From: Nanobdellota archaeon
GTDB taxonomy: Archaea > Aenigmatarchaeota > Aenigmatarchaeia > Aenigmatarchaeales > Aenigmatarchaeaceae
Assembly (NCBI GenBank): GCA_018901655.1
Contig: JAHIEG010000019.1
Location: 1-47,909, forward strand
Length of the DNA stretch: 47,909 nt
Direction: 5' to 3'
Shown here: piece by piece, positions 38,623-47,909 of the stretch
How positions within the stretch are numbered: position 1 is the stretch's first letter
Layout of the letters: each line of letters starts with the position of its first letter
The notes under the pieces: generated by a model
Databases searched by the model: none
What the model was told of the DNA's origin: nothing
What the model saw: the letters and a program-made list of their open reading frames with translations, nothing else
Position numbers and translations under genes: made by a program

Positions 38623-39543
38623 ATGCATAAATGGTTGATTAAAGAGAATGAAGCATCTGTTAATGGAAAGTATCCAGGAGCTAGAGAGATGGAAGAACAT
38701 ATTCGTAAAGGTATTATTATTCTTGATAAACCAAGAGGTCCAACTTCTCACATAGTTGATAAGCATATTAAAGATATTACTGGAATTGAAAAACTGTCTC
38801 ATGGAGGAACTCTTGATCCACCAGTGAGTGGCGTTCTTGTTATTCCTCTTTTAGAATCTACTAAACTTATGCCAATCTTATTATCATCTCGAAAAGAGTA
38901 TGTTGGAATTGCTTATCTACATAAACCAGCGAGTGAAGATAAAATACTTGATGCTTGTAATGAGCTTAAAGGGATAATTAAACAAACTCCACCAAAACGT
39001 TCTGCAGTAGCTAGACGTGAAAGAGAAAGAGAAATTTATGACCTAGAAGTTTTGGAGATCAAGGGTCAGTACGTATTAATTAGGGTTGTTTGTGAAGCAG
39101 GGACTTATATTAGACGTCTATGTGAACAGATTGGATGGAAACTAGATATGGGAGCTCACATGGTTGAACTACGAAGGACCAAGTCTAATGGTTTTACTGA
39201 AGACGACTGTGTAAATCTTCAAGACGTGTTTGATGCATTTGTTAGTGATGATGATAATATTATTCGTGAAATTGTTCAACCTCTTGAACTTATTGGAAAT
39301 GGTGCTCATTGTGTAGTTGTAGGTCAAGGTGCTATTCTTAATTTATGTAACGGTAGCCCACTTTATGTTGGTGGAGTTGTACGAGTTACATCTGATATTC
39401 AAATTGGTGATTATGTTCTAATGTATTCGGTTAGTGGTGAAATGATTGGGTTTGGTGTTGCTAAAATGACGAGTGAACAGATGATTTTAGAAAACAAAGG
39501 TGTAGCTGTTAAGACTGATAGGATTATTAAGATTGAACGATAG
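38623..39543 (+). CDS. cbf5: tRNA/rRNA pseudouridine synthase Cbf5/TruB
   Basis: ILDKPRGPTSHIVDKHI; KLSHGGTLDPPVSGVLVIPL; C-terminal PUA domain. Confidence 0.96.
   Translation: MHKWLIKENEASVNGKYPGAREMEEHIRKGIIILDKPRGPTSHIVDKHIKDITGIEKLSHGGTLDPPVSGVLVIPLLESTKLMPILLSSRKEYVGIAYLHKPASEDKILDACNELKGIIKQTPPKRSAVARREREREIYDLEVLEIKGQYVLIRVVCEAGTYIRRLCEQIGWKLDMGAHMVELRRTKSNGFTEDDCVNLQDVFDAFVSDDDNIIREIVQPLELIGNGAHCVVVGQGAILNLCNGSPLYVGGVVRVTSDIQIGDYVLMYSVSGEMIGFGVAKMTSEQMILENKGVAVKTDRIIKIER
39517..39540 (+). repeat. cbf5-3'-end repeat, copy A (native cbf5 terminus)
   Basis: gataggattattaagattgaacga encoding DRIIKIER. Confidence 0.6.
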
Positions 39544-39544
39544 G

Positions 39545-39680
39545 TTATTTTTCTAAATAAGTTATATTTTTTTCTGGGTTAAAGTATAAAGAAAGCTTAT
39601 TTTGTTTTAGAAAATCTATCCCAATTATAGGTGGAACTTGCTGAATTTCTGCTTTTTTCCGTTTCTTTTGACAATGTATA
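39545..39680 (-). pseudogene. Truncated retropepsin-like protein fragment abutting the cbf5 3' end
   Basis: Reverse-frame reading KKRKKAEIQQVPPIIGIDFLKQNKLSLYFNPEKNITYLEK-stop, no adequate start codon. Confidence 0.4.
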
Positions 39681-39808
39681 CCATAAGATTAATTAGAAAT
39701 CAGGAAATAAAAAGATTGAAATTACCCTATACGACAATAACATAACCGACAACCGACGATACGTTTAGTATAAATGTTTGAAATAATAAGTATTTTTGAG
39801 GTATAAAT

Positions 39809-40192
39809 ATGGGAAAGAAAGAACCTACTATAAATGAACAACTTGATGCACTTTTAAGTAAAATGAGGGAATCTAGTAGTTCATCTAATGATGCGTTAGA
39901 ATTTGATTCTAGACAACGAGCATATGTTCCGGGATCAGAGGTTTTAAGCGAATTTGATCCTAGACAAAATAGATATGTAGCAAAAAAAGATGTATTGGAA
40001 TTCGATTCTAGACAAAATAGATATGTTGAAAGGAAGAATGTACTCGAATTTGATTCCTTACAAAATAAATATGTCGGAAAAAAAGACGTATTAGAATTTG
40101 ATAATCGACAACAGTGCTTTGTAGCCAAAGAAGATGTATTGGTTGAATATGACATGAGACAAAAGAAATTTGTTAGAAGAGGAAGTGACTAA
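39809..40192 (+). CDS. Tandem-repeat protein (EFDSRQNRYV... repeats)
   Basis: Six approximately 16-17-aa repeats of LEFDxRQxxYVxxxDV. Confidence 0.7.
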   Translation: MGKKEPTINEQLDALLSKMRESSSSSNDALEFDSRQRAYVPGSEVLSEFDPRQNRYVAKKDVLEFDSRQNRYVERKNVLEFDSLQNKYVGKKDVLEFDNRQQCFVAKEDVLVEYDMRQKKFVRRGSD

Positions 40193-40209
40193 ATTAATGA
40201 GGTGAAATT

Positions 40210-40650
40210 ATGGGAAACGAAGAAATGATTGAAAGATTATTAAAAGGCGGGGAAAAATTACTAAAAGATTTCGAATGTATTGGTTGGGGGCCTGGTCCAT
40301 TTTATGAACACAACCAAGAAGTATTTGCTGCAGAAGATAAAGAAAAGCGTTTCAGAGAGAAATTCAAATCCCCAGATTTCCAAAAGATAGCATCAGATCG
40401 GGCAAATAATATGGAAAGAACAGCTGATTATCAATTTGCTACAAAACAAATTGGATTAGAAGAACATCAAAGAGAAATTGCAGGTGCTAAAAATACCAGA
40501 TATGTGAATTCTCCAGAATGGCTAGAACCACCTTTAGATGTAGCTTCTAATATTGAACATCAGGCAGATTCAGATTATTCGAACAGTAGAATTAATTTTG
40601 AAACATATCAGAGAGAACTAGCAAAATCTAGAAATATAAGACGAATATAA
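40210..40650 (+). CDS. Hypothetical protein with internal duplication
   Basis: NMERTADYQFATKQIGLEEHQREIAGAKNTRYV versus NIEHQADSDYSNSRINFETYQRELAKSRNIRRI. Confidence 0.6.
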   Translation: MGNEEMIERLLKGGEKLLKDFECIGWGPGPFYEHNQEVFAAEDKEKRFREKFKSPDFQKIASDRANNMERTADYQFATKQIGLEEHQREIAGAKNTRYVNSPEWLEPPLDVASNIEHQADSDYSNSRINFETYQRELAKSRNIRRI

Positions 40651-40722
40651 TTCCTTTCTTTTTTTAAATTTTTATTATCTTTCTACCGTTGGTTACAATT
40701 TTAACTAATCCATGTGTATTTA

Positions 40723-40827
40723 TTATCTCACACTCCTCATAGTATCCAGATTAACTATATCTATCACATCGCCAATCTCATTGTGGCATGCTTCTGTTAT
40801 GAATTCATCAAATAGTTTTGGCATCAT
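40723..40827 (-). CDS. 34-aa ORF coupled to the MNT gene, possibly a truncated partner
   Basis: MMPKLFDEFITEACHNEIGDVIDIVNLDTMRSVR; start overlaps the upstream stop codon. Confidence 0.35.
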   Translation of the reverse strand: MMPKLFDEFITEACHNEIGDVIDIVNLDTMRSVR

Positions 40828-41372
40828 AATTCAATTCCTCCTTCAAGCACTATTCCATTGCACAGATTTTCTTTTAGTTCTTTATGCACTCCATTCCACG
40901 ATTCAAAAAATTCAATGTTTATTTTTCTTTGAACTGTCTTTTCAAACTCAGTAAGATTAGCTTTCTTTTCCTTTCTTCCGACTACACCAATGTCTATATC
41001 TGAATTGAAAGCATCTTCACCTTTTGAATAACTTCCAAATAATATTATTGTTGATCCAGCAAATTCTTTGTCTAAAAAATCAGCTAATCCTGTTTCATAT
41101 ATTTGTTTTAAATTATCTACTCTTTTTAGTTGAATAACTTTGTGATTATTTCTGTTAAGTTCGATAGACCATCTTTTTGATTCTTTATCTTGTTTGGTTA
41201 GAATTAAATCTTTCTTTTTCAGCTCAGGGAGTGCTTTCATCACTGCTGGTTGTGATACATTAAGTTCTTTTGATATTTGTCTTTGATTTAATACTGTTCC
41301 TACTTTTATGAATAGTAGTCTTAAAATATCTTGCTGAAGGTTTGTTAACTTTAGTTTATATGTATTAACCAT
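40824..41372 (-). CDS. HTH plus minimal nucleotidyltransferase (MNT) protein
   Basis: N-terminal wHTH; IILFGSYSKGEDAFNSDIDIGVV nucleotidyltransferase motif. Confidence 0.88.
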   Translation of the reverse strand: MVNTYKLKLTNLQQDILRLLFIKVGTVLNQRQISKELNVSQPAVMKALPELKKKDLILTKQDKESKRWSIELNRNNHKVIQLKRVDNLKQIYETGLADFLDKEFAGSTIILFGSYSKGEDAFNSDIDIGVVGRKEKKANLTEFEKTVQRKINIEFFESWNGVHKELKENLCNGIVLEGGIEL

Positions 41373-41486
41373 AGTTTATGTATGTTAACTTTAGTTTATA
41401 AGTATATGTTTATTATTTGTTGAATTCTACTGTAAAGACATTACTGTTAAAATCGATCTGATTTTAAAAATTGAAACATAAATTTT

Positions 41487-41819
41487 TTATTTATATCCAA
41501 ATCGTCTTTCATAATTTTTATGATTAAACCATTCTAAAATAACAGAAACAATTAAAATCTCATTTCTTTTTATTGTATATATTAATCGCCATCCATTTGG
41601 TAAGTCGTATTTCCAGAGATTTTGAGCATTGTATTTTTTGACATAGAGTTTTGGCATTAGTTTTTTAGATATGTGCAAACCTGTAAATGGATCCTTTTCT
41701 AGTTCATTAATTGCTCGATAGATAAAGTCATAAAGTTTTTTGTCTTCATTCTTAGATTGTTTAAGATGTTCAAACGCCTTTTTGATTTTTAAATCTGCAA
41801 ATTTTACAACCGATTTCAT
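41487..41819 (-). CDS. RelE/ParE-superfamily toxin-like protein
   Basis: KKAFEHLKQ...LWKYDLPNGWRLIYTIKRNEILIVSVILEWFNHKNYERRFGY. Confidence 0.7.
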   Translation of the reverse strand: MKSVVKFADLKIKKAFEHLKQSKNEDKKLYDFIYRAINELEKDPFTGLHISKKLMPKLYVKKYNAQNLWKYDLPNGWRLIYTIKRNEILIVSVILEWFNHKNYERRFGYK

Positions 41820-41837
41820 ATTTATCCAATCTCATTA

Positions 41838-42269
41838 TCATTTAATAGTTAATTCTGGTCTAGACATTAATTTTTTTACTCCTTCAGGATCCCATATCCA
41901 AATAATGTGTCCACCCTTGATTACTATTTTTCCACTTTCTTCTAAATAATCTAAGATTACATTAAATGTTTGATACATTACTTCTTTTGGAAGAGCTTGT
42001 AGTAGTTGTCTTTTTGATGGATATTCTTTTGCTTCTCTTATTGTTTTTTCTACCATCAAAACTGTGTCTAGTCTTGGATAATGCAGAATTGCTTTAGCGG
42101 TTCCTTTTTCTACCCTACCGTGACATTTAGAACATAATGTTATGAGATTATCTAAATTATTATTTTTCTCTTTTTTATGATGTATTTCTAAAGCACCAAT
42201 ACTTCCACAAAGTGCACACTGGTTATTATCTCTTTTAAGAACCATTTTTTGTATATTTTTCCAATTCAT
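41838..42269 (-). CDS. HNH endonuclease-like protein
   Basis: CALCGSIGALEIHHKKEKNNNLDNLITLCSKCHGRV. Confidence 0.88.
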   Translation of the reverse strand: MNWKNIQKMVLKRDNNQCALCGSIGALEIHHKKEKNNNLDNLITLCSKCHGRVEKGTAKAILHYPRLDTVLMVEKTIREAKEYPSKRQLLQALPKEVMYQTFNVILDYLEESGKIVIKGGHIIWIWDPEGVKKLMSRPELTIK

Positions 42270-42404
42270 TTTATAGCGCCTATTAAATTATATAATTTAT
42301 ATAAGCTTATCAATAGTATATAAGTTTATCTGTATTATCCATATTATTAATTAGAATTAGTTTAGTATAAACCTTGTTTACCCCTTACTGTTAAACAGAT
42401 AGAA

Positions 42405-42686
42405 TCATTTCTTTCCAATCCTTTTTTCTCTCTTCTTTCTATTACATTTTAAACATAATATTTCACAATTAGCCAGTGTGTTGATTGAAGTTTTACCAAC
42501 TTTATGATGAACAGTATAATATTTTTTTGTTATATCGAACTTCGTAAATTTGGTTTTACAAACTAGACATTTGTGTTTTTGTTTATCAAATGCTTTTGAT
42601 ATAATAGTAGTTGAAAATCCTTTTCTCTTTCTTGCTTCTTTTCCGAATATCTTCTCTACAAATGGTTTAGCTTGTGTTATCATCAT
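42405..42686 (-). CDS. Small HNH endonuclease-like protein
   Basis: CLVCKTKFTKFDITKKYYTVHHKVGKTSINTLANCEILCLKCNRKK. Confidence 0.8.
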   Translation of the reverse strand: MMITQAKPFVEKIFGKEARKRKGFSTTIISKAFDKQKHKCLVCKTKFTKFDITKKYYTVHHKVGKTSINTLANCEILCLKCNRKKREKRIGKK

Positions 42687-42763
42687 TAGTACTAATTAAA
42701 ATTTAATCAATAAAAATATACAACTTAGATGGGTAAATTAAAACCATATGCATATGATATAAC

Positions 42764-43048
42764 TTATAGCACATAGAATTTTTCAATCTTCTCTTTAATT
42801 TCATCTATTTTCTTAAGATTTAACTGCCAAACATGTTCTTTACCATGTGGAAATTTAACTAGTAATCCTTTTCTATAAAGATTTTTAGCAACATCCATTA
42901 TATCTTTCCTTAAATGAGACGGAAACCCTTTTGGAAGATCAGATTCATAAATATGTCTCTTAACACCAGCTCTCATCATAAACATTTTATGTAATAAAGC
43001 AACTTCTAACTCTTCATCTGAAACATCTTTTTTCTTTATATCAACCAT
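42764..43048 (-). CDS. Hypothetical protein, possible wHTH
   Basis: 94 aa ORF; SHLRKDIMDVAKNLYRKGLLVKFPHGKEHVWQLN. Confidence 0.6.
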   Translation of the reverse strand: MVDIKKKDVSDEELEVALLHKMFMMRAGVKRHIYESDLPKGFPSHLRKDIMDVAKNLYRKGLLVKFPHGKEHVWQLNLKKIDEIKEKIEKFYVL

Positions 43049-43154
43049 GCTTATAATTAGTAGAACTTCTATTTATTTGTATTGTATAATAAATATACAA
43101 CTAATACATAATCTTTATATATTAGTAAATCTATAAAATCTATTATAAGATCAT

Positions 43155-43168
43155 GGATTATATAATCC
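43155..43168. promoter_or_regulatory. Perfect palindrome GGATTATATAATCC, putative operator
   Basis: 14-bp perfect dyad just upstream of the wHTH gene start. Confidence 0.45.
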
Positions 43169-43183
43169 AAAATTGTGATAAAT

Positions 43184-43507
43184 ATGAAAGCAGAATCAGT
43201 ATTTTTAGAAACATTTGGCGAAAGCCCATACATAAAGGTATTAGACTTTTTCTTAACTTATCCAAGTTTTGACTATTCAAAAACACAGGTAGCAGATGAG
43301 ATAGGAATATCAAGAATAACAATAGATAAAATATGGAACGACCTTATCAAAAAGGATATAATAGTTAAGAACAGAACAATGGGAAGAGCAGAATTGTATA
43401 AATTAAATGTAGCAAGCCCAAAAGTAAAAATATTAATGAAAATAGGATTGGAGTTAGCTAGTGCCTATTTAAAATCTGATGAAAAATTAATCACTGTTAC
43501 AGCCTAA
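43184..43507 (+). CDS. Winged-helix DNA-binding protein
   Basis: PSFDYSKTQVADEIGISRITIDKIWNDLIKKDIIVKNRTMGRAELYKLN. Confidence 0.75.
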   Translation: MKAESVFLETFGESPYIKVLDFFLTYPSFDYSKTQVADEIGISRITIDKIWNDLIKKDIIVKNRTMGRAELYKLNVASPKVKILMKIGLELASAYLKSDEKLITVTA

Positions 43508-43879
43508 TTAAAATATCATAAAAGTAAATAGGAGATGGCAAAGGGTGGTTGAGAGATATGCAAAAATTTGATTAGAAAGAGTCCTGCTGCATAATTACAG
43601 TTATTCTTGTTAGTGGAGACCTTAATAGCATATCTGCGCAGCGATTAATTATTAAGACTGACTATTATTTAATTGGTTTATATATTTAGAACTCGTGTGT
43701 ATAGCAAGGTCGAGTGGCATTCTGATACCTTTTGGTGTTTGGGTGTCACATTATTATTCTAATTAAAAACTTAGTTACTCTTGGTAGTGCTTTTGTTAAA
43801 TTTAGTTCAACTACTGGTGTTAGAAAGGTTCAGATTAGGGAATATAGTGAAAGGTTGGAAAATAAATATAGTTAATACT

Positions 43880-43903
43880 GATAGGATTTTAAAGGTTGAG
43901 AGG
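43880..43903 (+). repeat. cbf5-3'-end repeat, copy B
   Basis: gataggattttaaaggttgagagg encoding DRILKVER. Confidence 0.55.
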
Positions 43904-43914
43904 TGACTATTAGT

Positions 43915-44184
43915 ATGGTATTAATAGTAGATAAAAAAGAGTTTATTAAAAATATAATTAAAGTAGTGATAAAGTCGATTATTTCTACATTTCTTGTAGT
44001 AGAAATTTTAGAAAGGTTTGCTGGTATTATTATTAATACATATTCACAATTATTGATTATAGTTATATTTACTTTAGCTATATTTTGGTTTAGTTTTATC
44101 GATTGGCTTGATAATAAAATAAATGAACATGATGCGATAAAAGAGGACATTATAAAAATAAAGAAGAAGTTAAAAATGAGGTGA
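43915..44184 (+). CDS. Small two-TM protein upstream of the SIR2-like gene
   Basis: Two hydrophobic helices followed by a charged C-terminal tail; ATG internal to the supplied ORF. Confidence 0.6.
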   Translation: MVLIVDKKEFIKNIIKVVIKSIISTFLVVEILERFAGIIINTYSQLLIIVIFTLAIFWFSFIDWLDNKINEHDAIKEDIIKIKKKLKMR

Positions 44185-44189
44185 AATGA

Positions 44190-44291
44190 ATGAAAGGAAA
44201 CCTGATAAAAACTGGTGCCGAAATTATTGGATTCATTATACTAATATATGTAGCAATAATTTTAATAAAGGCCTTTGCTGGAGCAGCTTAA
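44190..44291 (+). CDS. 33-aa single-TM peptide (absent from the supplied ORF track)
   Basis: Own translation: MKGNLIKTGAEIIGFIILIYVAIILIKAFAGAA. Confidence 0.5.
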   Translation: MKGNLIKTGAEIIGFIILIYVAIILIKAFAGAA

Positions 44292-44329
44292 ATTTAAATA
44301 AAACATATAGTATAAAATGATTGATAAAC

Positions 44330-45316
44330 ATGGTTAAAGCATTTCTAATAGGAGCAGGTGCAACAAGGGCACAATATTTTAGAGAGTCTCATAGAGCACC
44401 ACTGAGTGTTGATTTTTTTGAATTATTAGCAATGCGCAATAGACAATTATTTCGAGATATAGAAAAAGCAATAAGGCCCTACATAAACGAAACATTACAA
44501 GATTCAAATATTGAAGAAGTAATGACACTATCTCAAAAATTTCCTCAATCAACCAATACTTCATTTCAGGAATCATTGTATCAGGCCATATATGAACTAT
44601 TAGCCGAACCCACCGAAAGTAATGAATCCGATATAAATCGATACATTAGAGGGAATATTGGAAGAGGACCAACAAATTTTAAAATATTGTTGAACGATCC
44701 CCGATTGAAAGAAAAAGATTTTTTTATGACATTAAATTATGACCTATACCTTGATAGAGAAGTTCTCACAATTCAAGGAAGCATTGATTATGGTATAGAC
44801 ATTAGGATAATCAATAAAGATGATATGATTAATCGAAATTATGAGATACGGTTTCCACGAGAATCCATTTTTTCAATATATCATTTACATGGCTCGTTAA
44901 ATTGGGAGTTATTAACAAACGGAACTATTCATATTAAAAAAGGACCTGTTCAACCACGTCATACGAGAATAGGATCAAATATATGTTTAATTCCACCAGG
45001 AATAAAAGAATTGACACCAGTTTTACAATCTATTTGGAAAATAGCAGAACAAAGATTACTATTAGCCGATGAGCTAATTATTATAGGATGTAGCTTAAAT
45101 CCTGAAGATAAACAACTTATCGAACTTATAAAAAAGTTTGTTAAAAAGCACGGTGCCAATAGTGTTAAAATAATATACAAATCAGAAAATACAGATTCTA
45201 AGTTACTTGATAATTATTGTGATATCGTTGGTAAGGGATTTAAAAATTATCCTTATGGGTTTGATATAAATGGTCCGGGTGATAAACCGGGAGCAATTGA
45301 ATTCATTTTTAGTTAA
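44330..45316 (+). CDS. SIR2-like domain protein
   Basis: FLIGAGATR, FFMTLNYDLYLDR, IYHLHGSLNWELL, ICLIPPG, LADELIIIGCSLNPEDKQ. Confidence 0.85.
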   Translation: MVKAFLIGAGATRAQYFRESHRAPLSVDFFELLAMRNRQLFRDIEKAIRPYINETLQDSNIEEVMTLSQKFPQSTNTSFQESLYQAIYELLAEPTESNESDINRYIRGNIGRGPTNFKILLNDPRLKEKDFFMTLNYDLYLDREVLTIQGSIDYGIDIRIINKDDMINRNYEIRFPRESIFSIYHLHGSLNWELLTNGTIHIKKGPVQPRHTRIGSNICLIPPGIKELTPVLQSIWKIAEQRLLLADELIIIGCSLNPEDKQLIELIKKFVKKHGANSVKIIYKSENTDSKLLDNYCDIVGKGFKNYPYGFDINGPGDKPGAIEFIFS

Positions 45317-45361
45317 AATTTTAACGGCAGTTCATATTCTTTACAGCGCGCGTGTAAAACT

Positions 45362-45385
45362 GATAAGATTTTAAAGGTTGAAAAG
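45362..45385 (+). repeat. cbf5-3'-end repeat, copy C
   Basis: gataagattttaaaggttgaaaag encoding DKILKVEK, preceded by GTAAAACT (VKT). Confidence 0.55.
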
Positions 45386-45387
45386 GT

Positions 45388-45786
45388 TTAAAATTTAAAT
45401 TTAATTGGTTGTTTCTTTATAACATTCCCAAACATATCTCTTTTCATTACCTTTCTTTTTGTTTTCTTTTTAACTGTCTTCTTTGGTTTCTTTATTAATC
45501 TTGTTTTTCTTACCCCTGTCATCATATTAGTTCCAATATATTTTCGTCTTTTTTTAGTATGTCTAACAGCATGATGGTTTGGACAAAGTAGTTCAATATT
45601 TGATGCTCTATCGTTTGAGCTATTCATGTCTTTATGATGGTTATGTAAATTTACTCTTTGATTACAGCCTCTATATTGACACTTGCTTCCTGCTTTCCTT
45701 TTCACAGCTTTCTTCTTTTTTGCTGATAGGGGTTTTCTTCCTGAAGACCTTAATCCTAATATATTTGTCCTTACCATCATAATCAA
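45388..45786 (-). CDS. HNH endonuclease-like basic protein
   Basis: CQYRGCNQRVNLHNHHKDMNSSNDRASNIELLCPNHHAVRHT. Confidence 0.82.
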   Translation of the reverse strand: MIMMVRTNILGLRSSGRKPLSAKKKKAVKRKAGSKCQYRGCNQRVNLHNHHKDMNSSNDRASNIELLCPNHHAVRHTKKRRKYIGTNMMTGVRKTRLIKKPKKTVKKKTKRKVMKRDMFGNVIKKQPIKFKF

Positions 45787-46001
45787 CTCGTTAATATGAA
45801 ACCAATTATCATTAAAATAATGATTATAATAAGTCCATATAATAGCCCTTTCTTCTCATTCTTGGCTTCTTTCTTCTTTTCTTTTTTACTCATTTTATTA
45901 ATCTTTGCTTGATATTTTCTCATATACCAAATACCAAGAACAAGAGCGATTAATGTTACCCCAACTTCTAAAATTATTTGAACATTTTCTTGTGATACCA
46001 T
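45783..46001 (-). CDS. Small two-TM protein with a KKEKKKEAKNEKK linker
   Basis: 72 aa ORF; overlaps the start of the HNH gene. Confidence 0.6.
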   Translation of the reverse strand: MVSQENVQIILEVGVTLIALVLGIWYMRKYQAKINKMSKKEKKKEAKNEKKGLLYGLIIIIILMIIGFILTS

Positions 46002-46077
46002 AATAATAATTGAATAAGGGGATATAAAAATATACCACAGAGATAGAATTATAAATCATATTTACTAATTGATTTGT

Positions 46078-46809
46078 ATGCCAAACTGTGATAAGTGTAA
46101 AAAGAAAATAGGTTTAACACAATATTCTGTATTAGGCGGTGGATTGTGTAAGACATGTAAAATTAAGGAAGACAAAAAAAGCGGGCGAAAGGCAGAACCA
46201 CTTATAAAATGTAAAACATGTAAAAAGAAAATTGGGGCTATGCGATATTCTATGTATAGTGGTTTATGTCCAGTTTGTTTCGATAAACAAGAACACAAAA
46301 ATAAGGCAGAAGATATTTTCATAAAAAATTGTGGGGAAGACTTTGGAGATGACAATACTCTGTTTCGTAAATGGAATGATGATGAATATGCTATATTTGG
46401 TAGTGGCTCTCTGTTTTCAAAAGAGGAAATAGTTGGTATGATTAATAAACACAAATTAGATATTAATAAAGCGGTAGCAGAACTTAATAAAATTGGTGAA
46501 AAGAGAGCCGAAGAAAATTGTATTGAGCATGAAGCAATAAAAATAAGAAAAAGAGCAGAGAGATTAAGAATAAGACAAGAAGCAGAAAAAAGAGTATTTG
46601 GTAAAACAAACATCAAGAGTAGAACAGCATTTTCTAAAAATGATAAGAGTGCTATTTTTGAGAAATTTCATAATGAGTGTGCCATATGTGGTGCTTCTGA
46701 AGGGCTTCATATTCATCATAAAGATAAGGATCCTTCTAATAGCAATATAAATAATTTGATAGTTCTATGTGGCGTATGCCATAAGAAAGTTCATATGAAG
46801 GTAAGATAG
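46078..46809 (+). CDS. Zinc-ribbon plus HNH endonuclease-like protein
   Basis: CDKCKKKIG and CKTCKKKIG ribbons; CAICGASEGLHIHHKDKDPSNSNINNLIVLCGVCHKKVH. Confidence 0.82.
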   Translation: MPNCDKCKKKIGLTQYSVLGGGLCKTCKIKEDKKSGRKAEPLIKCKTCKKKIGAMRYSMYSGLCPVCFDKQEHKNKAEDIFIKNCGEDFGDDNTLFRKWNDDEYAIFGSGSLFSKEEIVGMINKHKLDINKAVAELNKIGEKRAEENCIEHEAIKIRKRAERLRIRQEAEKRVFGKTNIKSRTAFSKNDKSAIFEKFHNECAICGASEGLHIHHKDKDPSNSNINNLIVLCGVCHKKVHMKVR

Positions 46810-46828
46810 GATTATTAAGGTTGAGAAG
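46805..46828 (+). repeat. cbf5-3'-end repeat, copy D
   Basis: gataggattattaaggttgagaag encoding DRIIKVEK then TAA. Confidence 0.55.
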
Positions 46829-46952
46829 TAACCTATTTTAGTAGTAAATAGTAATAATGACAATAATTTATATATAAAAACTAATTATGTCTATAGGTGA
46901 CCACTAGCATATATTTAAATCCTTTACTATAAGTAAATATAAGTGATATACA

Positions 46953-47537
46953 ATGACAGATAAGAAACAGTTCGATTCTAAAATTGAAGATTTTGTTAAA
47001 ACGGTAAATAGGATTAGTAGTTTATTAAAAGATAATAAATTTCAAATGGAATTTAGACCTAATAGTATTACATTAGGAACAGACATTTCTATGGATGAAG
47101 AGATTAAAAATATAGGCATAGACGATAAAAAATTCAATGAAATCATGAAAGAGATATCATCACTTTCAATATTAATACTCTTTAAAAACGATGATAAGAA
47201 AAAAAAATATATTAGAGAAAATAAATCGGTGGAAGAAAAAATAAAAATAATTAATGAAAGACTATTAACTGAAGATATGAAGAAAGAATTTATCTTTAAT
47301 AAAACATCTAAAAATTATATATTTAATGATATAGATTATGAAATATCAAAAAAAATAATAAGCAAAGACGAAAAAATTGAACCATTTAATATTATTACAA
47401 TTGTTTTTCATAATATTGATGTCATTACCCAAAGCGATAGAGAAAAAAAGATATCATTTAATATTTCAGAAAAGAAACTCGATTATCTTATAAACGAATT
47501 AAGTGTTATAAAAGAAAAATTAAAAAAGAGCGATTAG
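46953..47537 (+). CDS. Hypothetical protein
   Basis: 194 aa ORF. Confidence 0.6.
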   Translation: MTDKKQFDSKIEDFVKTVNRISSLLKDNKFQMEFRPNSITLGTDISMDEEIKNIGIDDKKFNEIMKEISSLSILILFKNDDKKKKYIRENKSVEEKIKIINERLLTEDMKKEFIFNKTSKNYIFNDIDYEISKKIISKDEKIEPFNIITIVFHNIDVITQSDREKKISFNISEKKLDYLINELSVIKEKLKKSD

Positions 47538-47909
47538 ATGTCACCTTATACAGTTGTTACAAAAGACGAAGAAAATCGTAGAATGAAATATACCGAATAC
47601 AGGACTCAGGGGTTCAATAAAGAAAGATTAGAATTTATAGCTAAGGAAGAACGCGAAATTGTAATAAAAACAACCTCATCTATCGACGAAGTAGTACATT
47701 TATTAGATTCAAAGTTTGTTGATGCTCTTAGTGAGACAATGAAATATGTACAATTAGAATTTAAGAACAGTTTAGCATTTAGCGATATTAGCTATATTTC
47801 CACAAGTAATACAGAAAGGTTTCAAAATGATATTATTGATGACACGTTATTATTCGCAACAAAACTTATACATTTACTTGATTTTAATAATATTTGGAAT
47901 AATACCAAA
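47538..47909 (+). CDS. Hypothetical protein, N-terminal part (runs off the window edge)
   Basis: Open frame MSPYTVVTKDEENRRMKYTEYRTQGFNKERLEFIAKEEREIVIK... directly after the preceding stop. Confidence 0.6.
   Translation, partial: MSPYTVVTKDEENRRMKYTEYRTQGFNKERLEFIAKEEREIVIKTTSSIDEVVHLLDSKFVDALSETMKYVQLEFKNSLAFSDISYISTSNTERFQNDIIDDTLLFATKLIHLLDFNNIWNNTK

Follow-up and report, generated by a model that had tools for sequence, protein, structure and literature searches.

Downstream of the pseudouridine synthase gene cbf5, the window analysed here (47,909 bp, the whole of contig JAHIEG010000019.1, called C2, of the Nanobdellota archaeon assembly GCA_018901655.1) carries an island of small gene modules separated by copies of the cbf5 3' end. 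We read this island, at a little better than even confidence, as a stack of small mobile cassettes, each with an alternative cbf5 3' end, whose likeliest motor is an endonuclease. The shared anatomy of the cassettes and their mobility are very likely; given both, an endonuclease motor is rather probable, the motor enzyme being what we infer. The host genome (G000, 665 kb) is a metagenome-assembled genome (MAG) that is 84% complete, and all genomes compared were draft, incomplete MAGs with no strain series among them. The main relatives compared were two congeners of a sister genus (G001 and G007) and a member of another genus of the same family (G006).

Four copies in the same orientation, about 4.4, 1.5 and 1.4 kb apart, had been reported in a first, sequence-only reading of the window. 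All were recovered (sites 1 to 4, Table 1), at spacings of 4363, 1482 and 1443 bp. The copies are 24-30 nt long, and the four in the window compare with 0 expected in 100 shuffles, so the claim that they exceed chance was upheld. A whole-genome search gave the same picture: the motif is not common, the array continues past the window end with two strong copies on contig C21, and no further strong copies were found elsewhere in the 665-kb genome. In a position-weight scan the six copies, all in one orientation, scored 31-38 bits. A degenerate seventh at C21:12069 reached 21.6 bits, and the next-best match in the genome, at 17.0 bits, is background.

The sequence-only reading had missed that the displaced copies, unless decayed, finish with a stop in the frame of cbf5. 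Frame and stop are both preserved in the five strong copies beyond cbf5, but not in the decayed seventh. The five read TDRILKVER, TDKILKVEKV, DRIIKVEK, TDKILKVEMV and VDRIIKVER, the stop coming at once or after one codon behind a DRI(I/L)KVE(R/K) variant. Preservation of frame and stop is rare among look-alikes from viral contigs and public genomes, at about 2 of about 77. The similar exact pattern GATARGATTNTNAARRTTGARA occurs in only 69 stretches of a 257-Gb genome collection; these and 8 viral stretches are coding matches, nearly all without a stop. Base differences among the copies are mostly synonymous or conservative, as they would be if every copy had once been, or still were, a working cbf5 end. 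Along the array the copy types (ATT-ATT or ATT-TTA) are mixed and not graded, which would be easier to explain if the ends came with different elements than if one lineage had produced them in succession. The cbf5 gene itself is without the GTYPK tail found in other family members whose tails were compared.

The array consists of six sites and one decayed site, and C21 comes after C2. This order is based on gene order, as ppiC and the rpsM operon, which adjoin cbf5 in relatives, are found here on C21 from 26.3 kb. The end of C2 (...ACCAAA) and the start of C21 (ACCAAA...) also overlap by six bases, in the frame of the open reading frame (ORF) that starts at 47538, an overlap that would be weak alone. 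Modules 1 to 6 measure about 4.4, 1.5, 1.4, 3.7, 0.5 and 8.9 kb. In G001 and G007 ppiC lies directly behind cbf5, while about 34.7 kb separates the two here; since both relatives are without the island, it is lineage-specific. The RNase J gene lies within this interval, at C21:13197. In G001 it is on another contig than cbf5, so a chromosomal rearrangement probably also occurred, and where the island ends on the right is uncertain. Orthologues of cbf5 were present in 56 of the 59 genomes searched. A search of order relatives for the cbf5 motif gave single scattered matches only, and no convincing repeats of a gene's own 3' end were found downstream of cbf5 at 20 loci, among which no cbf5 was located in L052 and the gene end was misread in at least two, L045 (internal stop) and L053 (probably the wrong end).

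The structure is not specific to cbf5, because further conserved genes show the same anatomy, both in this genome and in two more genera of the family (Table 1). The earlier proposal of 3'-end integration with accretion stands in that end-restoring, att-like copies bound an accreted island, and falls in its restriction to cbf5. The gene-end scan used the last 40 residues of every ORF as query and counted partial same-strand copies that end in a stop, lie no more than 5 kb away and score at least 20 bits, full-length paralogues being excluded; it detects arrays only while the end copies stay recognisable. Copies were found downstream and never upstream: 5 and 0 in this genome, 8 and 0 in G001, and 2 and 0 in G006, which was only sampled (15 and 0 in total). 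Some of the weaker matches (on C4 and, as a pilin-like pair, on C14 of this genome, and on C1 and C5 of G001) may be chance or paralogues. The shared anatomy consists of a conserved gene, usually convergent cargo, and an in-frame displaced 3' end mostly 0.6-2 kb downstream. The cargo of most modules begins with a convergent gene whose stop is no more than about 16 bp from that of the target. The elp3 gene of G001 is without a cassette, and the convergent gene found beyond the cassette here directly follows elp3 there.

At two of these genes, comparison of the ends with those of relatives gave a clear direction. For HerA of G001, 33 of 37 nt of the displaced end agree with the gene of the congener G007, as against 26 of 37 for the resident end. 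For L11 of G006, the displaced end KHPKEIQKEIDEGKWDDKIKE resembles KHPKEIVQEIEEGVWDEKING of the present genome, and the resident end EHPCEIQKKIDAGEFDDILKE does so much less. Judged from these matches, the displaced end is most likely native and the resident end foreign at both genes; the resident end would thus most likely have come with an element, which displaced the native one. A native displaced end was also considered for RNase J and ligase, a reading dropped after counting left the direction undecided.

In the mechanism proposed here, a homing endonuclease encoded by the cassette would cut the target gene and homologous repair would follow. The cassette would enter cbf5 within roughly the last twelve codons, and its own copy of these codons and the stop would complete the reading frame, so that the essential cbf5 would survive. 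The old 3' end would come to lie beyond the cargo and mark a boundary there, and repeated entry at one point would build the stack of modules. Toxin-antitoxin and defence genes would be hitch-hikers. HNH genes were found in four of the six cbf5 modules (1, 3, 5 and 6). The ligase cassette protein is similar to the LAGLIDADG portion of an intein (1.4e-6), and four LAGLIDADG-like cassette proteins share invariant DG and DE motifs. With modest confidence, the ligase, HerA and LeuRS cassette proteins may be divergent LAGLIDADG enzymes.

The copies had been interpreted before as att repeats of an integrase-type element. They are attachment-like, and the statement that no integrase lies in the window also held, since Pfam detected no integrase or recombinase domain among the array proteins scanned, hence no integron integrase and no ccr. 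However, as HNH or LAGLIDADG-like nucleases are often present in the cassettes, a tyrosine integrase is only one of two live mechanisms. It would act in trans on integrase-less (cis-mobilizable or satellite) cassettes whose att sites are gene 3' ends, with accretion at the regenerated att, and we consider this less likely, though a close alternative. Stacking favours it, as tandem copies of one site in the same orientation are also seen in the ssrA islands of Dehalococcoides (PMC3146451), and so do short identical junction cores at HerA (GCATGC) and elp3 (AATACTTCTACA). Furthermore, three tyrosine recombinases in the genome exceed the Pfam cut-off, and two of them start 60 bp past the 3' end of a tRNA or rnpB. 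This suggests that 3'-end integration occurs here, and, from the recombinase on C22, that rnpB is an integration site. The third, on C23, has no visible link to cbf5, and a short-word search for att sites of the C22 and C23 integrases gave none above background among the matches listed. Yet none of the cassettes contains a recognised integrase, and the eight or more target genes would need many specificities, for which there are only three integrases, two of them at RNA genes. Integrase elements are also not usually as small as 0.17-0.6 kb, or made up of one endonuclease gene. Homing is favoured by the absence of a linked integrase, by how many targets there are and by the cassettes with a lone nuclease gene.

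Recombination, homologous or illegitimate, with DNA of related species could have brought in a 3' end together with its convergent neighbour, in which case no dedicated element would be needed. The first cargo gene of most modules does look like one half of an ordinary convergent pair, with its stop so close to that of the target, and the copies are divergent yet conserved as protein. This explanation is nevertheless improbable. One-sided homology does not explain why an intact, in-frame native end reappears each time in the same orientation, nor are six to seven stacked events at a dozen cbf5 codons accounted for, or the fact that partial copies never lie upstream within 5 kb. Chance, or local tandem duplication of the cbf5 end followed by divergence, would suit such short copies but is highly implausible given that no copies are expected by chance, that the cargo between them mostly differs per module, and that the displaced HerA copy is nearer to the congener's gene than to the resident end.

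Several points weigh against cassettes driven by an endonuclease. The comparison of ends gave no clear direction at ligase, RNase J, elp3 and cbf5, there is no pair of strains with a single cbf5 module present in one and absent from the other, and the genomes compared are incomplete (84% here). Pfam is silent or weak on the LAGLIDADG assignment (E 3.9 in the case of the ligase cassette), and among solved structures PI-PkoII comes nearest, at E 0.11. No endonuclease was recognised in cbf5 modules 2 and 4, in the Lhr cassette or in RNase J module A. Finally, site-specific recombinases commonly stack elements at a single site; for endonuclease mORFs, we are aware of no report of this.

The mORFs of fungal mitochondria are the closest match for an insert with an endonuclease, a foreign in-frame end and a displaced native end. 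Carboxy-terminal replacement by mORFs has been described for atp6 of Allomyces, atp6, atp9, cox2 and nad3 of Glomus, atp9 of Rhizopus and cox2 of Mortierella, with endonuclease inserts of about 1 kb, foreign in-frame 3' ends, native ends displaced by about 1 kb and conserved targets (PMC3630166). The present cassettes resemble them in size, targets and gene-end layout, the foreign resident end and displaced native end being seen at HerA and L11, and part of the cassettes have a predicted endonuclease. They differ in lying on an archaeal chromosome, in their mostly convergent cargo, in having HNH or divergent LAGLIDADG-like proteins (predicted nucleases), in their toxin-antitoxin and defence cargo, and in forming stacked arrays at cbf5 and RNase J. 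The Dehalococcoides ssrA islands, of which 15 of 31 are without an integration module (PMC3146451), show the same accretion at one locus, with modules between direct repeats of one gene's 3' end. Their target is an RNA gene and part of them carry a serine recombinase, whereas here several protein-coding genes are targeted and no recombinase was found. As in cis-mobilizable islands, the cbf5 modules are flanked on both sides by direct repeats of the target's 3' end, in one orientation; a cognate recombinase was not found among the array proteins scanned in this 84% complete MAG, and the three integrases lie elsewhere. SCCmec and other SCC elements use the 3' end of rlmH, a protein-coding RNA-modification gene, where they keep the frame and form composite tandem islands. 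Unlike the cbf5 array, where no recombinase was found, they have ccr serine recombinases and inverted repeats. Integrons, including archaeal ones, are likewise arrays of small accessory-gene cassettes between repeated sites, but their sites are folded attC, while the repeats here are coding gene ends, the cargo lies on both strands and the array is without an integron integrase.

Judged against the open-access literature and general knowledge, we put forward only tentatively, at somewhat less than even confidence, an undescribed class of archaeal cassettes that swap the 3' ends of cbf5, RNase J, elp3, ligase, HerA, Lhr, LeuRS and L11, each bring a functional replacement end, carry endonuclease, toxin-antitoxin or defence cargo, and can stack into integron-like arrays. 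If this is true, archaea with small genomes have a general route for gaining defence, toxin-antitoxin and selfish nuclease genes with no harm to essential genes and no visible integrase. The displaced native ends would be fossils, from which insertion order and donors could be read in one genome. Prokaryotic islands would be linked with the 3'-end-replacing endonuclease elements of fungal mitochondria, and a conserved marker gene of these archaea could have a foreign C-terminus.

Table 1. Features of the cbf5 array, of related cassettes and of the tyrosine recombinases placed beside RNA genes. Positions are in the window (C2) unless another contig or genome is given.
Feature	Position	Strand	Observation
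cbf5 (TruB/Cbf5 pseudouridine synthase), target gene	38623..39543	+	ends TDRIIKIER-stop
Site 1, resident cbf5 3' end	39514..39540	+	motif search
Site 2, TDRILKVER-stop copy	43877..43906	+	motif search, frame check
Site 3, TDKILKVEKV-stop copy	45359..45391	+	motif search, frame check
Site 4, DRIIKVEK-stop copy	46802..46831	+	stop of upstream HNH gene inside the site
Two strong copies	C21:2643 and C21:3179	as cbf5	whole-genome search
Module 1	39544..43876	both	two + genes, HTH-nucleotidyltransferase, YoeB-like toxin, two HNH, basic protein, HTH, HerA-like fragment
HTH + nucleotidyltransferase (MNT) protein	40824..41372	-	70% identical to gene at G001 C7:58571
YoeB-like toxin	41487..41819	-	protein domain scan
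HNH endonuclease	41838..42269	-	protein domain scan
HNH endonuclease	42405..42686	-	protein domain scan
Small basic protein ('FPHG')	42764..43048	-	84% identical to gene in G001 RNase J cassette
HTH protein	43175..43507	+	80% identical to gene in G001 RNase J cassette
HerA-like ATPase, C-terminal fragment	43766-43875		last ~36 codons; stop abuts site 2; full paralogue at C10:37458
Module 2	43907..45358		membrane protein 43915-44184; SIR2-like protein 44330-45316 (Aga_SIR2-like)
Module 3	45388..46801		HNH 45388-45786 (-), membrane protein 45783-46001 (-), zinc-ribbon HNH 46078-46809 (+)
Module 4	46829..47909, on to C21:1-2642		genes 46953 and 47538; PIN-like, HEPN and MNT on C21
Module 5	C21, 0.54 kb		lone HNH gene between two copies
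Module 6	C21		DNA methyltransferase, HNH, BrxHI/DrmD-like SNF2 helicase, HATPase, small genes
elp3	this genome		displaced end 572 bp on
RNase J	G001		two further copies of last 35 codons
DNA ligase	G001		displaced end 1152 bp on
HerA	G001		displaced end 1215 bp on
Lhr	G001		displaced end 1189 bp on
Zinc-ribbon gene	G001		displaced end 1091 bp on
LeuRS	G006		displaced end 1348 bp on
L11	G006		displaced end 1149 bp on
AAA ATPase in C10 element	this genome		own 3'-end copy 1887 bp on
Tyrosine recombinase	C22:8080-9282		starts 60 bp past 3' end of RNase P RNA gene (RF00373)
Tyrosine recombinase	C10:19330-20613		starts 60 bp past tRNA

The cargo is mostly different from module to module. The assignment of MNT, toxin and HNH genes, of a SIR2 gene and of an HNH gene to the three intervals of the window, made in the sequence-only reading, agrees with the domain scan, the toxin being YoeB-like. 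Around their left ends, modules 3 and 5 are 78% identical in nucleotide sequence over 210 bp. The stop of the minus-strand HNH gene of module 3 overlaps the stop of site 3, and a short inverted repeat was seen by eye beside 45359. Besides its PIN-like, HEPN and MNT genes, module 4 has two genes without a recognised kind. The SNF2 helicase, methyltransferase and HATPase genes of module 6 form a defence-like set that was assigned to no known system. Related cargo occurs behind different target genes in related species, because the HTH and FPHG genes of module 1 are 80-84% identical to genes of the RNase J cassette of G001; rearrangement could also have moved it. The HerA-like fragment at the end of module 1 is probably a remnant of a larger element.

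Some other genes were observed beside these features. Two gene remnants lie just behind cbf5, at 39546-39715: the end of an antisense retropepsin-like gene and the beginning of an ATP-cone gene (82% to C21:25088-25165). At 39809-40192 there is a small protein of 16-residue repeats (LEFDSRQNRYVxKKDV) without a Pfam match. Behind the C10 recombinase, the region from 25 to 39 kb of that contig encodes HerA-like and AAA ATPases and resembles an integrated element. Likely inteins were found in DNA ligase (G000:C8:23074-25776), SRP54 (G000:C14:9183-12287), Lhr (G001:C4:75631-79962) and HerA (G006:C23:7031-8680); the Lhr intein has Pfam intein and LAGLIDADG matches, and the other three were judged from oversized or split frames. 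A defence-like set that was assigned to no known system lies at L009:5154-11993, where a methyltransferase, an HNH gene, a BrxHI/DrmD-like SNF2 helicase, a HATPase and a possible PD-(D/E)XK gene stand in a row.

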